A stretch of 32,564 bases of DNA from an uncultured Mailhella sp. (GTDB lineage Bacteria > Desulfobacterota > Desulfovibrionia > Desulfovibrionales > Desulfovibrionaceae): positions 1-32,564 of the forward strand of contig NZ_CALUYL010000032.1 of NCBI RefSeq assembly GCF_944324995.1, written 5' to 3'. The translations under genes were made by a program, and so were the position numbers. Positions 5,290-26,426 of the stretch are shown here, piece by piece. How positions within the stretch are numbered: the first letter of the stretch is position 1; each line of letters starts with the position of its first letter. The notes beneath the pieces are model-generated. The model searched no databases. It saw only the letters and a program-made list of their open reading frames with translations, and was not told where the DNA came from.

Positions 5290-6019
5290 AGATATCGACC
5301 TGCTGGATCTGGTGGAAAAGAGCAAGGCCAATGATCTCGCCTTTCTGCTCAAGGCAAAGGAACAGAGCAAGGCCCGCATGAAGCAGAACCCCACCCCGGA
5401 CAACATTTCCGCTTTTCGGCGGGCAAGGGCCGCGGTGGAAGAAGAATCCCGGCGCATTCAAGGAGGCTCGACGGCCATGAAGATTTTCAAGACGCAGCTT
5501 GATGCCTGCACGTTCCTGCGCGACTCCGGGTTCAAAATCAGCAAGAGCGCGTTCAACCGCGACGTGGCAGCGGGCAAGGTGAGCAAGAACGGCGACGGAT
5601 ATTTTGAGGAATCGGCGCTGCTTGGTTACGCGGCGGCACATCTTTCCCCTCTTGCCCAGCTGGAAAACCGCGCCCTTGCCGAGGCTTCCGCCGACAGGAT
5701 TTCGGCCGACGCCAAGCTGAAAAGCTACAGCGCAGAACGTGCCCGCCTGAAGCTGGAAAAGGAAATGGGCCTTCTCATGCAGAAAACCGAGCATGAGGAA
5801 GACCTTGCCTCCCGTGCGCTCTTCTTCCGGAGAGAGATTGAAAACTTCGGCAGGAGAAAGGCCGGCGAGCTCATCCTGCTGGTTCATGGAGACGAAAAGT
5901 TCCTTCCGCAGTTTCTGGAGTGGTGGGACAGAGAAACCGGAGACTGGATGGACGCCTGGGCGGCGGACAGAGAGTTCACGATTCAGAACGAAAACAGAGA
6001 AGACGAAGAGCCGGACTGA
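5282..6019 (+). CDS. Putative terminase small subunit with N-terminal extension
   Basis: This 245-residue protein probably recognises the packaging site for the GpA-type large terminase encoded next. The segment from M66 (MKIFKTQLDACTFLRDSGFK, then ISKSAFNRD) resembles the winged-helix DNA-binding start of Nu1-like small terminases, followed by a long charged helix (~110-180) and a C-terminal acidic tail. The first 65 residues form an extra helical domain (MTEDIDLLDLVEKSK). AGGAGG lies ten bases before the M66 codon (ATG 5477), so a shorter 180-residue product is possible. The start overlaps the methyltransferase stop by eight bases. The assignment rests on gene order and HTH likeness, not on a diagnostic motif. 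Its stop abuts the stop of the reverse-strand gene as TGATCA. Confidence 0.68.
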   Translation: MTEDIDLLDLVEKSKANDLAFLLKAKEQSKARMKQNPTPDNISAFRRARAAVEEESRRIQGGSTAMKIFKTQLDACTFLRDSGFKISKSAFNRDVAAGKVSKNGDGYFEESALLGYAAAHLSPLAQLENRALAEASADRISADAKLKSYSAERARLKLEKEMGLLMQKTEHEEDLASRALFFRREIENFGRRKAGELILLVHGDEKFLPQFLEWWDRETGDWMDAWAADREFTIQNENREDEEPD

Positions 6020-6460
6020 TCAAAGAAGGTTTTTGCCGGCAAATTCAAGGCCTTTTGAAAGTATGAACTTCATTATGTCACTGATGCTTTCTGAAGCCCC
6101 TTCTGCCAAAGCTTCAGTGACGAGTTCTCCGGCAGTATGCGATGAAGTCAGTACATCGGGAACGGCATTCAAAATCTCAAGTCCCTTAAGAGTAAGCACA
6201 GCATCCATGAAACCTATTGGATAACTATAGCCATCGTATTTGAGGTACCCGGAATCCTGCAACCAATCTAGAGTCGATTCAATGAAGTGAACTTCTTCCC
6301 GTTCATCTTTATTTCCTGACTCATACAAGTTGCCTTCCCACCATATCGCATAGTCTTCAACCAGCCTCAAATTGCAGGGAACGGGAAAATTTTCGTAAAG
6401 AATAGCAAATGTTTGCGCTGCAACATTATTAAAATTTTCAATATTCGGAGGAATAGCCAT
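6020..6460 (-). CDS. Unknown reverse-strand accessory protein
   Basis: This 146-residue soluble protein is read against the packaging operon. I see no signal peptide or transmembrane helix. The N half is rich in aromatics and acids (LYENFPVP, YAIWWEG, LDWLQDSGYL), then a helix-like block (VLTLKGLEILNAVPDVL) and a small-residue C-terminal helix. It resembles uncharacterised phage and genomic-island proteins with a winged-helix flavour, but I cannot name a family. AAGGAG lies six bases before the ATG, which is strong support that it is expressed. Its start codon (CAT at 6458-6460) overlaps the start codon of the forward gene at 6459. Its position between terminase subunits marks it as a moron-type cargo gene. 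Any promoter must lie inside the partner gene. Confidence 0.7.
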   Translation of the reverse strand: MAIPPNIENFNNVAAQTFAILYENFPVPCNLRLVEDYAIWWEGNLYESGNKDEREEVHFIESTLDWLQDSGYLKYDGYSYPIGFMDAVLTLKGLEILNAVPDVLTSSHTAGELVTEALAEGASESISDIMKFILSKGLEFAGKNLL

Positions 6461-21355: not shown

Positions 21356-22798
21356 ATGGCCTATAAGCATGGCGTTTACATCAGTGAAGCCGATACCAAA
21401 CTGGTCTCGGCCGTAGAAGCAACTTCCACTCTTCCCGTGGTCGTAGGCGTTGCTCCTGTCCACTCTCTGGGCAATACCAAAGCTCCGGTCAACGAACCGA
21501 AGCTCATCTACACCATGACGGAATTCGTGGCCGCCTTCGGCTCTCCGAGGGACGATGAACCCTATACCAGATATCCGCTCTACGAGGCGGCATCCCTGAT
21601 GCTGGACCGCTACAAGGTCTCTCCGCTTGTCTGCATCAATGTGTTCGACCCTGCGGAGCATACCAGCGAGGTCGAAAGCGAAAGCCTCACTCTCGTCAAG
21701 GGTTCGGCCCTGCTCGCTCACGGCGGCGTGTCCGCTCTGCCCCTGAAGGTCAGTGAAGGCAGCCCGCTTACGGAAAACACCGATTTTTCCCTGAACGCAG
21801 GGACCGGCGAGATTTCGATTCTGGAAGGCGGAAGTCTTACCGGGAACGAGACGCTTACCGCCACCTACACCTATGCCGACCCGACCAAGGTCACGTCCAA
21901 GGAGGTGATCGGCGGCGTGGATGAAACAACGCTGAAGCCTACCGGCCTTTCCGCCGTCCAGCGTGTGTTTCCTCTGTTCAGGCTTGTTCCCGGCCAGATT
22001 CTGACTCCGGGCTTCTCCGATGTACCGGCCGTGGGCATTGCCATCGCTTCCGCCTGCACCGACATTTCCGGCGTCTTCCGCGCCCAGGGCCACATTACCG
22101 TGCCCGAAACGCTGAACAACTATACGGAAGCGCCGGCATGGCTCATCGACAACGGTCTGACCGACAGCCATCTCATCTGCACCTTCGGCTCTCCTACCTA
22201 TAACGGTCTGAAGGAACACGGCGACATCCATGAAGCCTGCGGCATCTGCCGCAGGGCTGCGGAGAACGACGACATTCCCTTCTGGAGCCCTTCCAACTAC
22301 GGGCTGAAGGCCGACGGCGTGATGTATGGCGACAGCGATCTGAACCTCGATCTGTCTCAGGCCGCCTACCTGAACGGCAACGGCATTGCCACCTTCATCA
22401 ATTTCACGTCTTCGTTTGTGTTCTGGGGCGACCTGACGACCGCCTATCCCGGTGTGTCCGATGTGAAGGAGGTGCAGATCCCCGTCCGCATGATGTTCAA
22501 CTGGATAGGCAACAGCATCATCCTCACTGCCTTTCAGAAGGTCAGCGCTCCTTTGCGCCGCCGGCTCATCGAAACGGTGTGCGATACGCTCAACGTCTGG
22601 CTCAACGGTCTGACGGCGCGGGAATTCATCCTCGGCGGCCGCGTGGAATTCCTGGAATCGGAAAATCCTTCGACTGATCTCATGGGCGGCATTGCCCGCT
22701 TCCATGTGTATGTCACGCCTCCGAGTGCCGCCGGAGAACTGGACTTCACGCTGGAATACGACGTCGACTACCTCAGCACGCTTTTTGAAGCGGCGTAA
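21356..22798 (+). CDS. Contractile tail sheath protein
   Basis: A 480-residue P2 FI/Mu L-type sheath protein. Typical blocks are MAYKHGVYISE at the N-terminus, SALTLNIV-like VVVGVAPVH, the Rossmann-like VICTFGS and the conserved C-terminal NVWLNGLTAREFILGG and VYVTPPSAAGELDFTLEYD. It makes the outer contractile layer and proves a myovirus-type tail. GAGAGG lies eight bases before ATG. No insertion or truncation seen. Confidence 0.96.
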   Translation: MAYKHGVYISEADTKLVSAVEATSTLPVVVGVAPVHSLGNTKAPVNEPKLIYTMTEFVAAFGSPRDDEPYTRYPLYEAASLMLDRYKVSPLVCINVFDPAEHTSEVESESLTLVKGSALLAHGGVSALPLKVSEGSPLTENTDFSLNAGTGEISILEGGSLTGNETLTATYTYADPTKVTSKEVIGGVDETTLKPTGLSAVQRVFPLFRLVPGQILTPGFSDVPAVGIAIASACTDISGVFRAQGHITVPETLNNYTEAPAWLIDNGLTDSHLICTFGSPTYNGLKEHGDIHEACGICRRAAENDDIPFWSPSNYGLKADGVMYGDSDLNLDLSQAAYLNGNGIATFINFTSSFVFWGDLTTAYPGVSDVKEVQIPVRMMFNWIGNSIILTAFQKVSAPLRRRLIETVCDTLNVWLNGLTAREFILGGRVEFLESENPSTDLMGGIARFHVYVTPPSAAGELDFTLEYDVDYLSTLFEAA

Positions 22799-22809
22799 CG
22801 GAGGCATCC

Positions 22810-23346
22810 ATGGCACTGGCACAGACCAACCTCATTCCCGCACTTCTGGCAGATGCCCGCATCTATAAGGACGGCTATGTTCTTCTGGGCGTAGGCAACA
22901 TTGAACTGCCCAGCATCGAATATATGTCGGAAACGCTTTCCGGTTTCGGCCTGGGCGGTGAAATCGAAGTCCCCGTCAAGGGGCACTTCAAAAGCATGAC
23001 CGTCAAAATCAAATGGAACACGGTCGAACCGGAGGCCGTTCAGCTTCTGGAAACCACCGCCCATCATCTGGACATACGCGGCTCCGTCGAAAAAGTGGAC
23101 GCCGGCACCGGTGAATTCCTTGATCTGCCCGTGAAACTGGTCCTGCAGGCAGCTCCCAAGACAAACAGCCTCGGAACCATGGAACCGGCCAAGAAGATGG
23201 ACGGAGAAACCGAACTGGAAGTCACCTACCTGAAACTCTGGATCAATGGGGTGGAAGAGATGGAAATCGACAAGCTCAACTTCATCTGCAGGATACAGGG
23301 CACCGACCTTCTCCAGGTCATGAGAATCAATCTGGGGATGATCTGA
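22810..23346 (+). CDS. Tail tube protein, P2 FII-like
   Basis: A 178-residue tube protein with the P2 FII/Mu M pattern: MALAQTNLIPALLADARIYK, then GVGNIELPSIEYMSETLSGF and a C-terminal LKLWINGVEEMEID. These form the inner rigid tube through which DNA leaves. It follows the sheath by 11 bases with GGAGG upstream; the stop overlaps the next start as TGATG. Confidence 0.95.
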   Translation: MALAQTNLIPALLADARIYKDGYVLLGVGNIELPSIEYMSETLSGFGLGGEIEVPVKGHFKSMTVKIKWNTVEPEAVQLLETTAHHLDIRGSVEKVDAGTGEFLDLPVKLVLQAAPKTNSLGTMEPAKKMDGETELEVTYLKLWINGVEEMEIDKLNFICRIQGTDLLQVMRINLGMI

Positions 23347-23507
23347 TGGACGCCTACATTGTCGGCCAAGGCGTCAAATTCGAGCGTATTCGTCGGATTA
23401 CCGGCTACCTGGTCGGCGATCTGGACAGGTTCAACAACGGCAAACGTGCAGAAGAGCGCGACCGGGTAAAACACTGCAGCATGAATGACTGGGAGGCGAA
23501 AAAATGA
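23346..23507 (+). CDS. 53-residue peptide matching the C-terminal glycyl-radical region of class III ribonucleotide reductase
   Basis: A short gene between tube and tail chaperone, coupled on both sides (TGATG at the start, ATGA at the end). The peptide carries the segment FERIRRITGYLVGDLDRFNN followed by GKRAEERDRVKH, which corresponds to the extreme C-terminus of NrdD, the anaerobic reductase that makes deoxynucleotides; G20 lies in the radical-glycine position of TGY. The zinc cysteines that precede this loop in NrdD are absent; only one Cys (KHCSM) is present. Comparable short proteins in phage tail operons are commonly labelled reductase, but a free 53-residue piece cannot be an enzyme. 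It might work as a spare radical domain, like YfiD/GrcA for pyruvate formate-lyase, or have another role. Function unknown. Confidence 0.72.
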   Translation: MDAYIVGQGVKFERIRRITGYLVGDLDRFNNGKRAEERDRVKHCSMNDWEAKK

Positions 23508-23815
23508 AGGAAAACATCACGCTGAAATATCCTCTGAATCTGGCAGACGGAAAGTTGAGCAACATTTCCATACGCCGGCCGGACCTCGGCGACCTGCTCG
23601 ACTGTCCTGTGAAGGACGCCTCGGACATAAAGGGCGAAGCCGTTCTTCTGGCCAGACTCTGCGGCATGAACATGGAAGATTTCCGCAAGCTCGACCTCGA
23701 AGACTACCTGCAGGTGCAGAAAAGCTATCTGCGATTTCGCATCGGAAACGATGTCGAAGAAGGAAGTGATGCGTCTGTGCGTGATTCTGTCCCGGCTCAC
23801 GGGATGGGGGCTTGA
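23504..23815 (+). CDS. Tail assembly chaperone, gpE-like (upstream part)
   Basis: A 103-residue protein (ENITLKYPLNLADGKLSNIS, then IRRPDLGDLLDCP) of the P2 E/Mu gp41 type that guides tape measure and tube assembly. It ends at TGA 23813-23815, immediately after GGGGGCT (23806-23812), where a second frame continues. In P2, Mu and lambda a ribosomal frameshift at this point adds the downstream part to a fraction of molecules. The stop position and G run fit that arrangement. ATG overlaps the preceding stop. Confidence 0.85.
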   Translation: MKENITLKYPLNLADGKLSNISIRRPDLGDLLDCPVKDASDIKGEAVLLARLCGMNMEDFRKLDLEDYLQVQKSYLRFRIGNDVEEGSDASVRDSVPAHGMGA

Positions 23816-23900
23816 GGACGTGCGGAGCGTGAAGGTGTGCGACGTGAAAGACTGGCTGGACGTCGCCATGGATGTGGAAAAATCCATGGCCGGCAAGTAG
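23769..23900 (+). CDS. Tail chaperone frameshift extension, gpE'-like
   Basis: A 43-residue frame overlapping the chaperone end in the +1 (equivalently -2) frame (MRLCVILSRLTGWGLEDVRS, then VCDVKDWLDVAMDVEKSM). It carries the acidic, Trp-containing helix expected of the E' extension. Its ATG has AAGGAAG upstream, so independent initiation is possible, but such extensions are usually made only by frameshift at the shared slippery site (GGGGGCTTGA). It stops with TAG directly against the stop of the next reverse gene. Confidence 0.7.
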   Translation: MRLCVILSRLTGWGLEDVRSVKVCDVKDWLDVAMDVEKSMAGK

Positions 23901-24227
23901 TCAGGCTCTCTGAGACTTTTTTAAAGCATCGATCCGGGCAAGCATCTCCTGATGCTCCCGGCGCTTGCGGGCGTTCAGCTCTTCTTCCCATGCCTTCCGC
24001 TCCCGCGCTTTCCATTCCGGCCGCCACTTGCGGTGCCGGACATAGAGCACGGCCCGGCGCACAGCCTCGAACAAACGTCCAGACGCGGCAAAGGCAAGCC
24101 TTGTACCTGTAAACGTAAGGGCCATGCCGTCCAGCACGCGACAGAGACACCAAAGAACCACAATTCCGGCAACGAGAACGGCCAGCACCACCATCACGCC
24201 GGACAGCACACCGTTGACAATTTCCAT
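23901..24227 (-). CDS. Reverse-strand membrane protein between chaperone and tape measure
   Basis: A 108-residue protein with an N-terminal transmembrane helix (VNGVLSGVMVVLAVLVAGIV) and a strongly basic, coiled C-terminal half (RHRKWRPEWKARERKAWEEE). ATG 24227 is chosen because GGAGG is five bases upstream; ATG 24230 is only two bases from it. That ribosome site overlaps the forward tape measure site in the palindrome CTCCGGAG (24234-24241). No family recognised. The reverse direction inside a co-directional late operon marks it as an independently expressed moron, perhaps active in the lysogen; that role is inference. Confidence 0.73.
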   Translation of the reverse strand: MEIVNGVLSGVMVVLAVLVAGIVVLWCLCRVLDGMALTFTGTRLAFAASGRLFEAVRRAVLYVRHRKWRPEWKARERKAWEEELNARKRREHQEMLARIDALKKSQRA

Positions 24228-24248: not shown

Positions 24249-26426
24249 ATGGCACAGAATTTCGGCGTAGGATTCATCATTGGTGCCACGGTTGCGGCTT
24301 CAGTCAATTCTGCATTTACCACAGTCTCCAATAAAATCAAACAAACACAAGCACAGATGGGCAAAACCCGACAGGAGATGTCCATTCTGAATAAAGCCAT
24401 CACGCTGCAAAACCAGCGTTCTTCCCTGGTGGATCAGTATCGGGCGTCCGGGGGAACCGATGCAAAGCTTCATGCCGAGCTGCAGCGCGTATCGGCAAAC
24501 TATGTGAAGGCCAGGCAGGAAGCTCTCAAATACGGTGCTTCCGTTGCTGAATGGGAAACGCAGCATCGAAAAGCCGCCGCCACATTGGAAACGCTGAACA
24601 GCAAAAAAGAGCTTCTGTCTTCCATGCAGGGGGAACAGAACAAGCGCTCCATGCTGCGCCAGAATATCGTGGGCGATGTGGCCAGCGTCATGGCTGTGGC
24701 GGCTCCCGTACGCTCCGCCATTTCTTTTGAGTCTGCCATGGCCGACGCGGCGAAAACCATTGACGGTATGCGCGATGAAACCGGCGCTCTCACTCCGGTT
24801 TATTATGAGATGGAAGCCGCCGTAAAGAGTCTGGGGCGTGAGCTTCCTTTGACTCATGACCAGATTGCTTCTCTGTTCGCGGCCGGCGGTCAGCAGGGCA
24901 TGACCGCCATCAGTGACCTGCGCGAATTCGCCACCATGGCCGCACAGATGGCGGTGGCCTTCGGCATGAGCAATGACGAAGCCGCGGATGCCATCGGCGG
25001 CTACAGGACGGCTCTCGGCCTCTCGTTTGAAGATACCCGCTCCATGCTGGATCTGATGAACCAGTACGCCAACACCTCTTCCGCGTCGGAAAAAGGCATT
25101 GCCGACATTGTGCGGCGCATCGGTTCTCTTGGACAGATCGCCGGCGTGTCCGCCAAGCCCATGACGGCGCTGGCCGCAACGCTGGACTCCATGAAGCTCG
25201 CTCCTGAAGTGGCAGCCACGGGCATCAAGAATATGCTTCTCTCCCTGACGGCCGGCAGCGCCGCCACCAAAAGCCAGCGGGAAGCCTTTGCCAAGCTCGG
25301 CATCGATGTGGTCAAGCTCTCCCGGCAGATGCAGAAGGACGGACCGGCTGCGGTCATCAGTGTCCTCGAAGCGGTCAAGCGGCTTCCGGAAGCCGAACAG
25401 CTTTCCATCATGAGCGAGATATTCGGCAAGGAAAGCATCGGCGCCATCGCACCGCTTCTTAAGAACCTGCAACTTGTGAGGCAGAATCTTGAGATTGCCG
25501 GCGACGAGTCCCAGTATGCCGGAGCCATGCAGCAGGAGTTTGCCAACCGCTCAAAGACGACGGCCAACAATCTCGTCATCATGAAAAACAGACTGGCGGA
25601 AATGGGGATTACTCTCGGCTCCGTCGTACTGCCTGCGCTGAATGCCGGTCTTGATACCCTCGGCCCGTACATCTCTGCCATCGCGGATTTTGCCGGAAAG
25701 CATCAGACGCTCACGACCGTTATCGTGGGAGCCGCAGCGGGATTCATGCTGCTCGGTCCTGTGGTTCGCGCCGGCGCTCTGGCCTACAGCCTGTTCCGCT
25801 CTGTACTTCTGGGCGGTCGAGCAGCCATTGCCGCGGTCACCACCGCTCAGTGGGGACTGAATGCAGCATTTTCCGCCAACCCCATCGGCATCGCCGTCAC
25901 GGCCGTCGCGGCTCTCGTGGCCGGGCTTATCTATCTCTACCAGACCTGTGAGCCGGTACGTGCTGCCTTTGACGCTGTATTCGGCTACATCGGAAACATC
26001 ATCAGCAGTGTCTGGCAAAAAATCAAAGGCTTCGGGGATACGCTGAAGTCTCTCGGCAAATGGGCTGGCTTTGGAGGCGATGACGAAGAAGAAGCCGAAA
26101 CGGTTAATCCGGAAGCGGTTGTTCCACCGCCCAAGACTGTCGTTCCACCTCTGCCTCCTGTTCCGCAGGGGTCGCCCTTTGTTCTTCCGGCTCCTTACGG
26201 ATCAGGGGCCGCGTCGCCCTCGTCTTCTCAGGCCGGACAGCCGGTCTCTCAGGGCCAGCTTCCGGGGACCCCCGTCACGGCAAACTTCAGCTTCCAGATG
26301 AGCGGCATTCCCGACAGGGATTTCGCGGAACGGGTCGTCCAGGCAATCCAGGAACGACGTTCCGAATTCGAGCAGCTTCTTGACCGGATTGTCCGGGATC
26401 AGCAGAGGGCGGCCTATGGCGTCTAG
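24249..26426 (+). CDS. Tail tape measure protein
   Basis: A 725-residue protein that sets tail length. An N-terminal hydrophobic helix (FGVGFIIGATVAASVNSAF) is followed by a long coiled coil (about 30-140), then a TP901/core tape measure region (SFESAMADAAKTIDG, SASEKGIADIVRRIGSLGQI). Hydrophobic segments lie near 485-515 and 540-565 (PIGIAVTAVAALVAGLIYLY). The tail has a Pro/Ser-rich linker (VVPPPKTVVPPLPPVP) and a final helical block. ATG 24249 is set by CCGGAG nine bases before it; the open frame continues upstream without a site. Its length matches a tail of roughly 100 nm, an inference from the usual 1.5 Å per residue. Confidence 0.93.
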   Translation: MAQNFGVGFIIGATVAASVNSAFTTVSNKIKQTQAQMGKTRQEMSILNKAITLQNQRSSLVDQYRASGGTDAKLHAELQRVSANYVKARQEALKYGASVAEWETQHRKAAATLETLNSKKELLSSMQGEQNKRSMLRQNIVGDVASVMAVAAPVRSAISFESAMADAAKTIDGMRDETGALTPVYYEMEAAVKSLGRELPLTHDQIASLFAAGGQQGMTAISDLREFATMAAQMAVAFGMSNDEAADAIGGYRTALGLSFEDTRSMLDLMNQYANTSSASEKGIADIVRRIGSLGQIAGVSAKPMTALAATLDSMKLAPEVAATGIKNMLLSLTAGSAATKSQREAFAKLGIDVVKLSRQMQKDGPAAVISVLEAVKRLPEAEQLSIMSEIFGKESIGAIAPLLKNLQLVRQNLEIAGDESQYAGAMQQEFANRSKTTANNLVIMKNRLAEMGITLGSVVLPALNAGLDTLGPYISAIADFAGKHQTLTTVIVGAAAGFMLLGPVVRAGALAYSLFRSVLLGGRAAIAAVTTAQWGLNAAFSANPIGIAVTAVAALVAGLIYLYQTCEPVRAAFDAVFGYIGNIISSVWQKIKGFGDTLKSLGKWAGFGGDDEEEAETVNPEAVVPPPKTVVPPLPPVPQGSPFVLPAPYGSGAASPSSSQAGQPVSQGQLPGTPVTANFSFQMSGIPDRDFAERVVQAIQERRSEFEQLLDRIVRDQQRAAYGV

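Follow-up and report, generated by a model that had tools for sequence, protein, structure and literature searches.

A free NrdD tail bearing the radical glycine, encoded in a phage tail operon, as a probable subunit of a two-chain class III ribonucleotide reductase

Why would a contractile-tailed phage carry, between two genes of its tail operon, a 53-residue open reading frame that looks like the very end of the class III ribonucleotide reductase (RNR) NrdD? The stretch of DNA analysed here, referred to below as the window, spans contig C32 from end to end (32,564 nucleotides) and comes from the genome of an uncultured Mailhella sp. It belongs to a contractile-tailed phage, with genes for a primase, a methyltransferase, terminase, portal, protease, major head protein, sheath, tube, tape measure and baseplate. 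The features on which the analysis centres are:

21356..22798, plus strand: tail sheath gene (PHROG 23, E = 1.4e-69)
22810..23346, plus strand: tail tube protein gene, the upstream overlapping neighbour of the peptide gene (Pfam Phage_tube, E = 2.6e-39)
23346..23507, plus strand: free NrdD glycyl-radical tail peptide, 53 residues (Pfam NRDD, PDB 8p23 and three more copies elsewhere in the genome)
23403..23405, plus strand: codon GGC of Gly20, aligned with the radical glycine Gly711 of P. copri NrdD (8p23 alignment)
23504..23815, plus strand: tail assembly chaperone gene (Pfam Phage_TAC_7, E = 8.1e-12)
24249..26426, plus strand: tape measure protein gene (PHROG 28, E = 1.2e-110, over the whole frame)

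The start of the tape measure gene was placed at an in-frame ATG behind a Shine-Dalgarno-like stretch, the open frame itself beginning at 23952. The ATG of the peptide has one base in common with the stop of the tube gene, and its own stop overlaps the ATG of the chaperone gene. Another frame, 23751-23900, runs across the 3' part of the chaperone gene, the position expected of a frameshifted product of the E/E' type found in P2-like phages, and is a candidate for such a product. The order sheath, tube, peptide, chaperone recurs in a locus of another genus (L095) and in five viral loci (L226-L230), all five of which encode one identical peptide.

The initial annotation had described the peptide as a free NrdD C-terminus carrying the radical glycine and devoid of any other reductase domain, and on both points it was right. 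Residues 11-43 of the peptide match positions 532-562 of the 562 positions of Pfam NRDD (PF13597; E = 6.8e-8; 32.1 bits, above the curated cut-off of 26.2 bits), i.e. about the last 32 residues of the family alone. The peptide also matches positions 585-617 of the 618 of NCBIfam PRK14704 (E = 1.2e-12), PHROG 487 (E = 1.8e-7) and the C-terminal end of P. copri NrdD in PDB 8p23. At E ≤ 1, no Pfam family other than NRDD was matched, the glycine-radical domain of pyruvate formate-lyase (Gly_radical, PF01228) included, and a search of Pfam and PHROGs together returned NrdD families alone and no known tail protein family. In the 8p23 alignment, Gly20, Tyr21 and Arg28 correspond to Gly711, Tyr712 and Arg719 of P. 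copri NrdD, a numbering that assumes an offset of 4 between the 743-residue chain in 8p23 and the 739-residue published numbering. Gly711 is the radical site of that enzyme, and Tyr712 and Arg719 are named as contacts (PMC11226230). The C-terminal glycine motif and the tyrosine and arginine contacts of a class III RNR are all found here in a separate peptide. In the manner of an autonomous glycyl radical cofactor, it is a small stand-alone protein resembling the radical-glycine-bearing C-terminus of a glycyl radical enzyme, that enzyme being NrdD and not pyruvate formate-lyase.

Conservation was assessed in an alignment of 33 free tails, the window peptide among them, which were hand-chosen from 74 fetched places and are not all of the fetched tails. 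The glycine is invariant (33/33), as is the equivalent of Tyr712, and the equivalent of Arg719 is kept in at least 90% of them. The dN/dS of the window tail is 0.095 against L095 and 0.296 against L229, for which the corresponding values are 0.085 and 0.177 for the tube gene and 0.267 and 0.448 for the chaperone gene; it lies below 1 in every pair tried. A chance resemblance to NrdD, which the initial annotation had allowed for, is rejected by the profile E-values, the glycine found in all 33 tails and these dN/dS values. The window ORF is, on this evidence, a free NrdD tail bearing the radical glycine and under purifying selection.

The same annotation had envisaged an intact host NrdD awaiting repair by the phage peptide, in the way that GrcA/YfiD restores pyruvate formate-lyase, and the host genome does not fit that picture. 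It contains four free-tail copies with a common core: the window peptide, C1:361289, C1:26721 and C22:33266. The first of the chromosomal copies, C1:361289, is a 61-residue tail gene situated 11 nt downstream of nrdD, and the core of the window peptide is 86.5% identical to it. The copy C22:33266 follows an endolysin-like gene (assigned by eye) in a prophage-like place. A weak match at C5:38327 (L005) was set aside as not NrdD, its frame having no recognisable NrdD tail. The host main chain is an NrdD (Pfam NRDD, E = 3.5e-188) with an ATP-cone (E = 1.2e-22), a barrel and a Zn-cysteine region, so that the partner chain expected of a two-chain class III RNR, with NrdD barrel and ATP-cone, is present. 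Its end, however, is degenerate: the Pfam NRDD match stops at position 547 of 562, and in the genus of the host the main chain ends in a stub, ..KQIKGYIRDSR.., whose glycine aligns with the radical glycine and which is without the preceding threonine, the Arg719 equivalent and the conserved end. A partner that is otherwise complete and is then cut by oxygen, as in the GrcA/YfiD system, is not what is encoded here, the normal tail being a separate chromosomal gene. The stub has likely, though not certainly, lost its function; because it keeps a glycine at the aligned position, the free tail could be auxiliary in this genus. An NrdG activase is also encoded nearby:

L002:2518-3048, minus strand: nrdG-like radical-SAM gene near nrdD (Pfam)

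A search for the class I/II large chain (PF02867), which matched 11 of 14 control genomes, came back empty for the host genome (98% complete), so that NrdD is the one RNR detected there.

Is the split nrdD a peculiarity of this host? Free tails were found in 44 of 149 genomes of the bacterial family, in 11 of its 44 genera, and 74 tail places were fetched with their surrounding DNA. In 40 of the 44 genomes, a tail gene is preceded on its own strand by an NrdD without the normal tail, which is whole in 39 cases and cut by a contig end in one (L116). Two more carry a partial NrdD as judged by eye (L112, L125); the remaining two have a fused gene (G081) and remnants only (G047). The Gly-Tyr pair after the Zn-cysteine region is absent from 23 of the 40 main chains and survives as a degenerate stub in the other 17, those of the host genus among them. 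Conversely, in the tail-negative genomes, NrdD reaches model position 559-562 in all cases among the matches listed. G001 and G008 have both an intact and a split NrdD. Of the 44 tail-bearing genomes, 13 are without PF02867, whereas the other 31 have it and therefore possess a reductase besides NrdD. The free tails are about 50-80 residues long and have their own start, usually with a ribosome-binding-like stretch (loci listed before L123); L123 has no ATG, GTG or TTG start in range. Since tails have their own starts and copies also lie away from nrdD, an intron or programmed bypass joining nrdD to its tail is not supported by the sequences. An assembly error is unlikely as the cause of the split because the arrangement recurs in 40 genomes. 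Degenerate tail copies occur at L140-L143 and L318. At L142 (about 5896-6137), a broken tail is accompanied by what is left of nrdD and nrdG; the genome in question has a full PF02867 reductase.

Beyond the family, a scan of genome contigs returned at least 587 relatives. Among the best 80 of the 587, which lean towards query-like sequences, 63 are free tails that follow an NrdD without TGYL, with an nrdG match in the locus in 56 of these 63; 8 are free without an NrdD and 9 are fused and full-length. The free tails in these best 80 come from records of Bacilli, Erysipelotrichaceae, Butyricicoccus, Oscillospiraceae and Lachnospiraceae, and also of Mogibacterium, Anaerobiospirillum, Desulfovibrio and others. 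In a sample of the phylum, 17 of 395 genomes matched, comprising 12 from the family, 4 with a second, longer form and 1 with a full NrdD; outside the family, the tail is rare in the phylum. When genomes were drawn evenly from the class of G531 (Massiliimalia), 57 of 196 matched, for the most part within NrdD frames of full length, and only 9 of the 57, G531 included, have a match in a frame of less than 300 residues. Widespread as it is, the split form is thus in the minority in this class. The second form consists of frames of 103-142 residues in which a different NrdD tail is preceded by an N-terminal part, and was seen in the Desulfobacterota genomes G218, G250, G278 and G413 (loci L312, L313, L314, L315 and L316). 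G218 and G250 have, besides this tail, an NrdD with an intact motif, as in the YfiD system, whereas the NrdD of G278 has RVTSHGTH where the motif would be RITGYFTK.

The remaining copy in the host genome, C1:26721, lies in an oxygen-defence operon, where it is flanked on one side by genes for desulfoferrodoxin and double rubredoxin and on the other by a frame judged by eye to be rubredoxin-like and by a flavodiiron oxidase gene; the genes of this operon were named by Pfam in the host genome only and by eye in other genomes. PF02867 is missing from six of the nine genomes of the host genus (these six being 97-99% complete), each of which carries a tail placed between desulfoferrodoxin/rubredoxin and flavodiiron oxidase (L075, L076, L085, L086, L087 and L109). 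None of the three with PF02867 (G089, G147, G042) has a tail in this operon: G089 and G147 (the latter 87% complete) have other tails only, and G042 has neither NrdD nor tail. As a control, flavodiiron oxidase was matched in 13 of 17 chosen genomes outside the six, and the tail motif stood beside it in none of the 13. The association between the oxygen-operon tail and the absence of PF02867 is suggestive, comparing as it does six with three genomes of one genus, one of the three only 87% complete, and it is not an independent correlation because the six are related.

Copies are also numerous in phages. A scan of IMG/VR gave at least 400 relatives, and the best 80 of these 400 all lie in frames of less than 500 residues. 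Four viral contigs among these best 80 (L241, L260, L282, L294) encode their own tail-less NrdD together with a free tail. The glycine is present in 151 of 151 matches, a count biased by the fact that the matches were partly selected by a pattern containing that glycine. Glycine and tyrosine are kept in the phage-borne copies, one of the 151 having Phe for Tyr. The initial annotation had named loss of the glycine among homologues, or an association with tail genes alone, as points against a role with NrdD. Neither is seen: TGYL is kept at 72 of the 74 fetched places, the two exceptions (L142, L143) being degenerate copies, and tails located away from nrdD in other phage-like regions lie beside lysis, fibre, early or packaging genes (by eye), which argues that the peptide is not tied to tail assembly. 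The location between tube and chaperone genes had been called puzzling; the order is kept in the near relatives found, and other phage-like regions give the gene different neighbours. The phage-type cores are on average slightly closer to the tails of their own host genus than in shuffled pairings (mean identity 0.843 versus 0.819), with none of 10000 shuffles as high as observed, for copies that are not independent; for 8 of the 21 phage-type copies, the top-ranking genus is that of their own host, and L136 (on account of its motif), L140 and L141 were left out of the comparison. Strict adaptation of phage tails to their hosts finds weak support in these figures, the own host being matched only weakly better than other hosts, and it was not adopted. 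The phage-type tail L138 and the tail of its host, L135, have an unusual extra residue in common.

Gene structure, conservation and co-occurrence are established at the level of sequence. The reading we propose for them is that the peptide is, with good probability, a separable subunit that bears the radical in a class III RNR made of two chains, and that phages carry copies of it. The tail peptide would dock in the barrel of the main chain, and NrdG would place the radical on its glycine. Damage by oxygen would then cost only a replaceable peptide of 50-60 residues. A phage copy, made together with the late tail proteins, might keep dNTP synthesis going when the host peptide falls in amount or is destroyed by oxygen. 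Of the earlier proposal that the peptide acts with host NrdD, what survives is that it probably does so. With the host NrdD already split, the phage appears to contribute one more copy of an ordinary subunit and not, as YfiD would, to patch an enzyme that is whole. Against the subunit reading stand the odd location of a dNTP-synthesis gene in a late tail operon, the presence of PF02867 in most tail-bearing genomes and the Gly-Tyr stub kept by 17 of the 40 main chains. On a wider scale, we lean, with less assurance, towards the view that class III RNR is widely a two-chain enzyme whose radical sits on a disposable subunit of about 60 residues, cells and phages drawing on a shared, interchangeable pool that includes the copy among oxygen-removal genes. 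The damaged part, and not the whole enzyme, would be replaced, and phage copies may keep up or retune dNTP synthesis.

The main chain might instead be self-sufficient, the stub bearing the radical and the free tails serving as emergency spares after oxygen cleavage, as YfiD does for pyruvate formate-lyase. The stub of the host genus does retain Gly-Tyr at the aligned place, and apparent true spare parts stand beside a motif-intact NrdD in G218 and G250. We nevertheless regard this as unlikely, given what the stub is missing (the preceding threonine, the Arg719 equivalent and the conserved end) and the complete absence of Gly-Tyr from 23 of 40 related main chains. The 86.5% identity of the peptide core to the tail beside host nrdD also makes competition conceivable, with the phage peptide filling the barrel of host NrdD and blocking or altering it, perhaps so as to evade dATP control or impede rivals; the C-terminal domain of P. 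copri NrdD takes part in dATP regulation (PMC11226230). A pure blocker would need neither the catalytic glycine nor the tyrosine, however, and with both kept in the phage copies, such an antagonist is quite improbable.

Two further readings detach the peptide from NrdD function. Were it a structural or assembly component of the phage tail, its likeness to NrdD a leftover, the conserved gene order in L095 and L226-L230 would be accounted for, but the same core occurs away from tail genes in other phage-like regions (by eye) and beside nrdD in hosts, and we give this reading very little credence. Slighter still is the chance that it is a functionless passenger: the gene is small and has degenerate relatives elsewhere, whereas the low dN/dS of the window copy and the overlap of its start and stop with the stop and start of its neighbours speak for a maintained gene.

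Known systems resemble this one in part. YfiD/GrcA of E. coli and Y06I of phage T4 are likewise small stand-alone versions of the glycyl-radical end of a large enzyme, one of them phage-encoded, with a link to oxygen damage (PMC8683613). They serve pyruvate formate-lyase, whereas the window peptide resembles NrdD; YfiD has 127 residues against about 50-80 in the free NrdD tails; and the partner of YfiD is cut by oxygen, whereas the normal tail is already missing from the gene for the NrdD main chain. The NrdD enzymes of P. copri and T4 have the same end motif, Zn-cysteine region and ATP-cone, with NrdG in the operon or nearby, but are single chains, while here the last 35 or so residues with the radical glycine form a separate gene. 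Class II NrdJa/NrdJb is another RNR divided in two towards the C-terminus (PMC9669993), but it is an enzyme without a glycyl radical and the division falls at other domains. In phage genomes, nrdD is also interrupted (T4-like phages, phiAS4 and others), by introns, inteins, homing endonucleases or unexplained breaks in the phages' own RNR genes, and the passages of that source on such splits describe no free radical tail (PMC3653736). Searches of open-access full text in PubMed Central yielded no description of a split or stand-alone NrdD tail. As far as such searches reach, free radical tails as such are already known from YfiD and Y06I, and what is new is a two-part class III RNR with an oxygen-operon copy and many phage copies. 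A large RNR phylogeny removed sequences of less than 400 residues, and free tails would be hidden in it for that reason (PMC9531940).

Oxygen cuts glycyl radical enzymes at the radical, and according to a 2021 paper just two spare parts had been validated, both serving pyruvate formate-lyase, with the suggestion that others might exist (PMC8683613). The peptide described here is a sequence-based candidate for such a part in RNR, an enzyme needed for DNA synthesis, and in some tail-bearing organisms no other RNR was detected. If the proposal is true, it would help to account for the restart of DNA synthesis in gut anaerobes that have been exposed to oxygen. It would also provide a natural two-part system in which glycyl radicals can be studied, and a further class of phage metabolic genes whose small size makes them easy to miss.

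Variants of the tail were also seen. At L318:4920-5150, a relative of the tail is without the glycine motif and keeps both ends. At L199, L204, L270, L277 and L291, from viral contigs and gut bacteria, tails are joined to another N-terminal part in frames of 97-242 residues.
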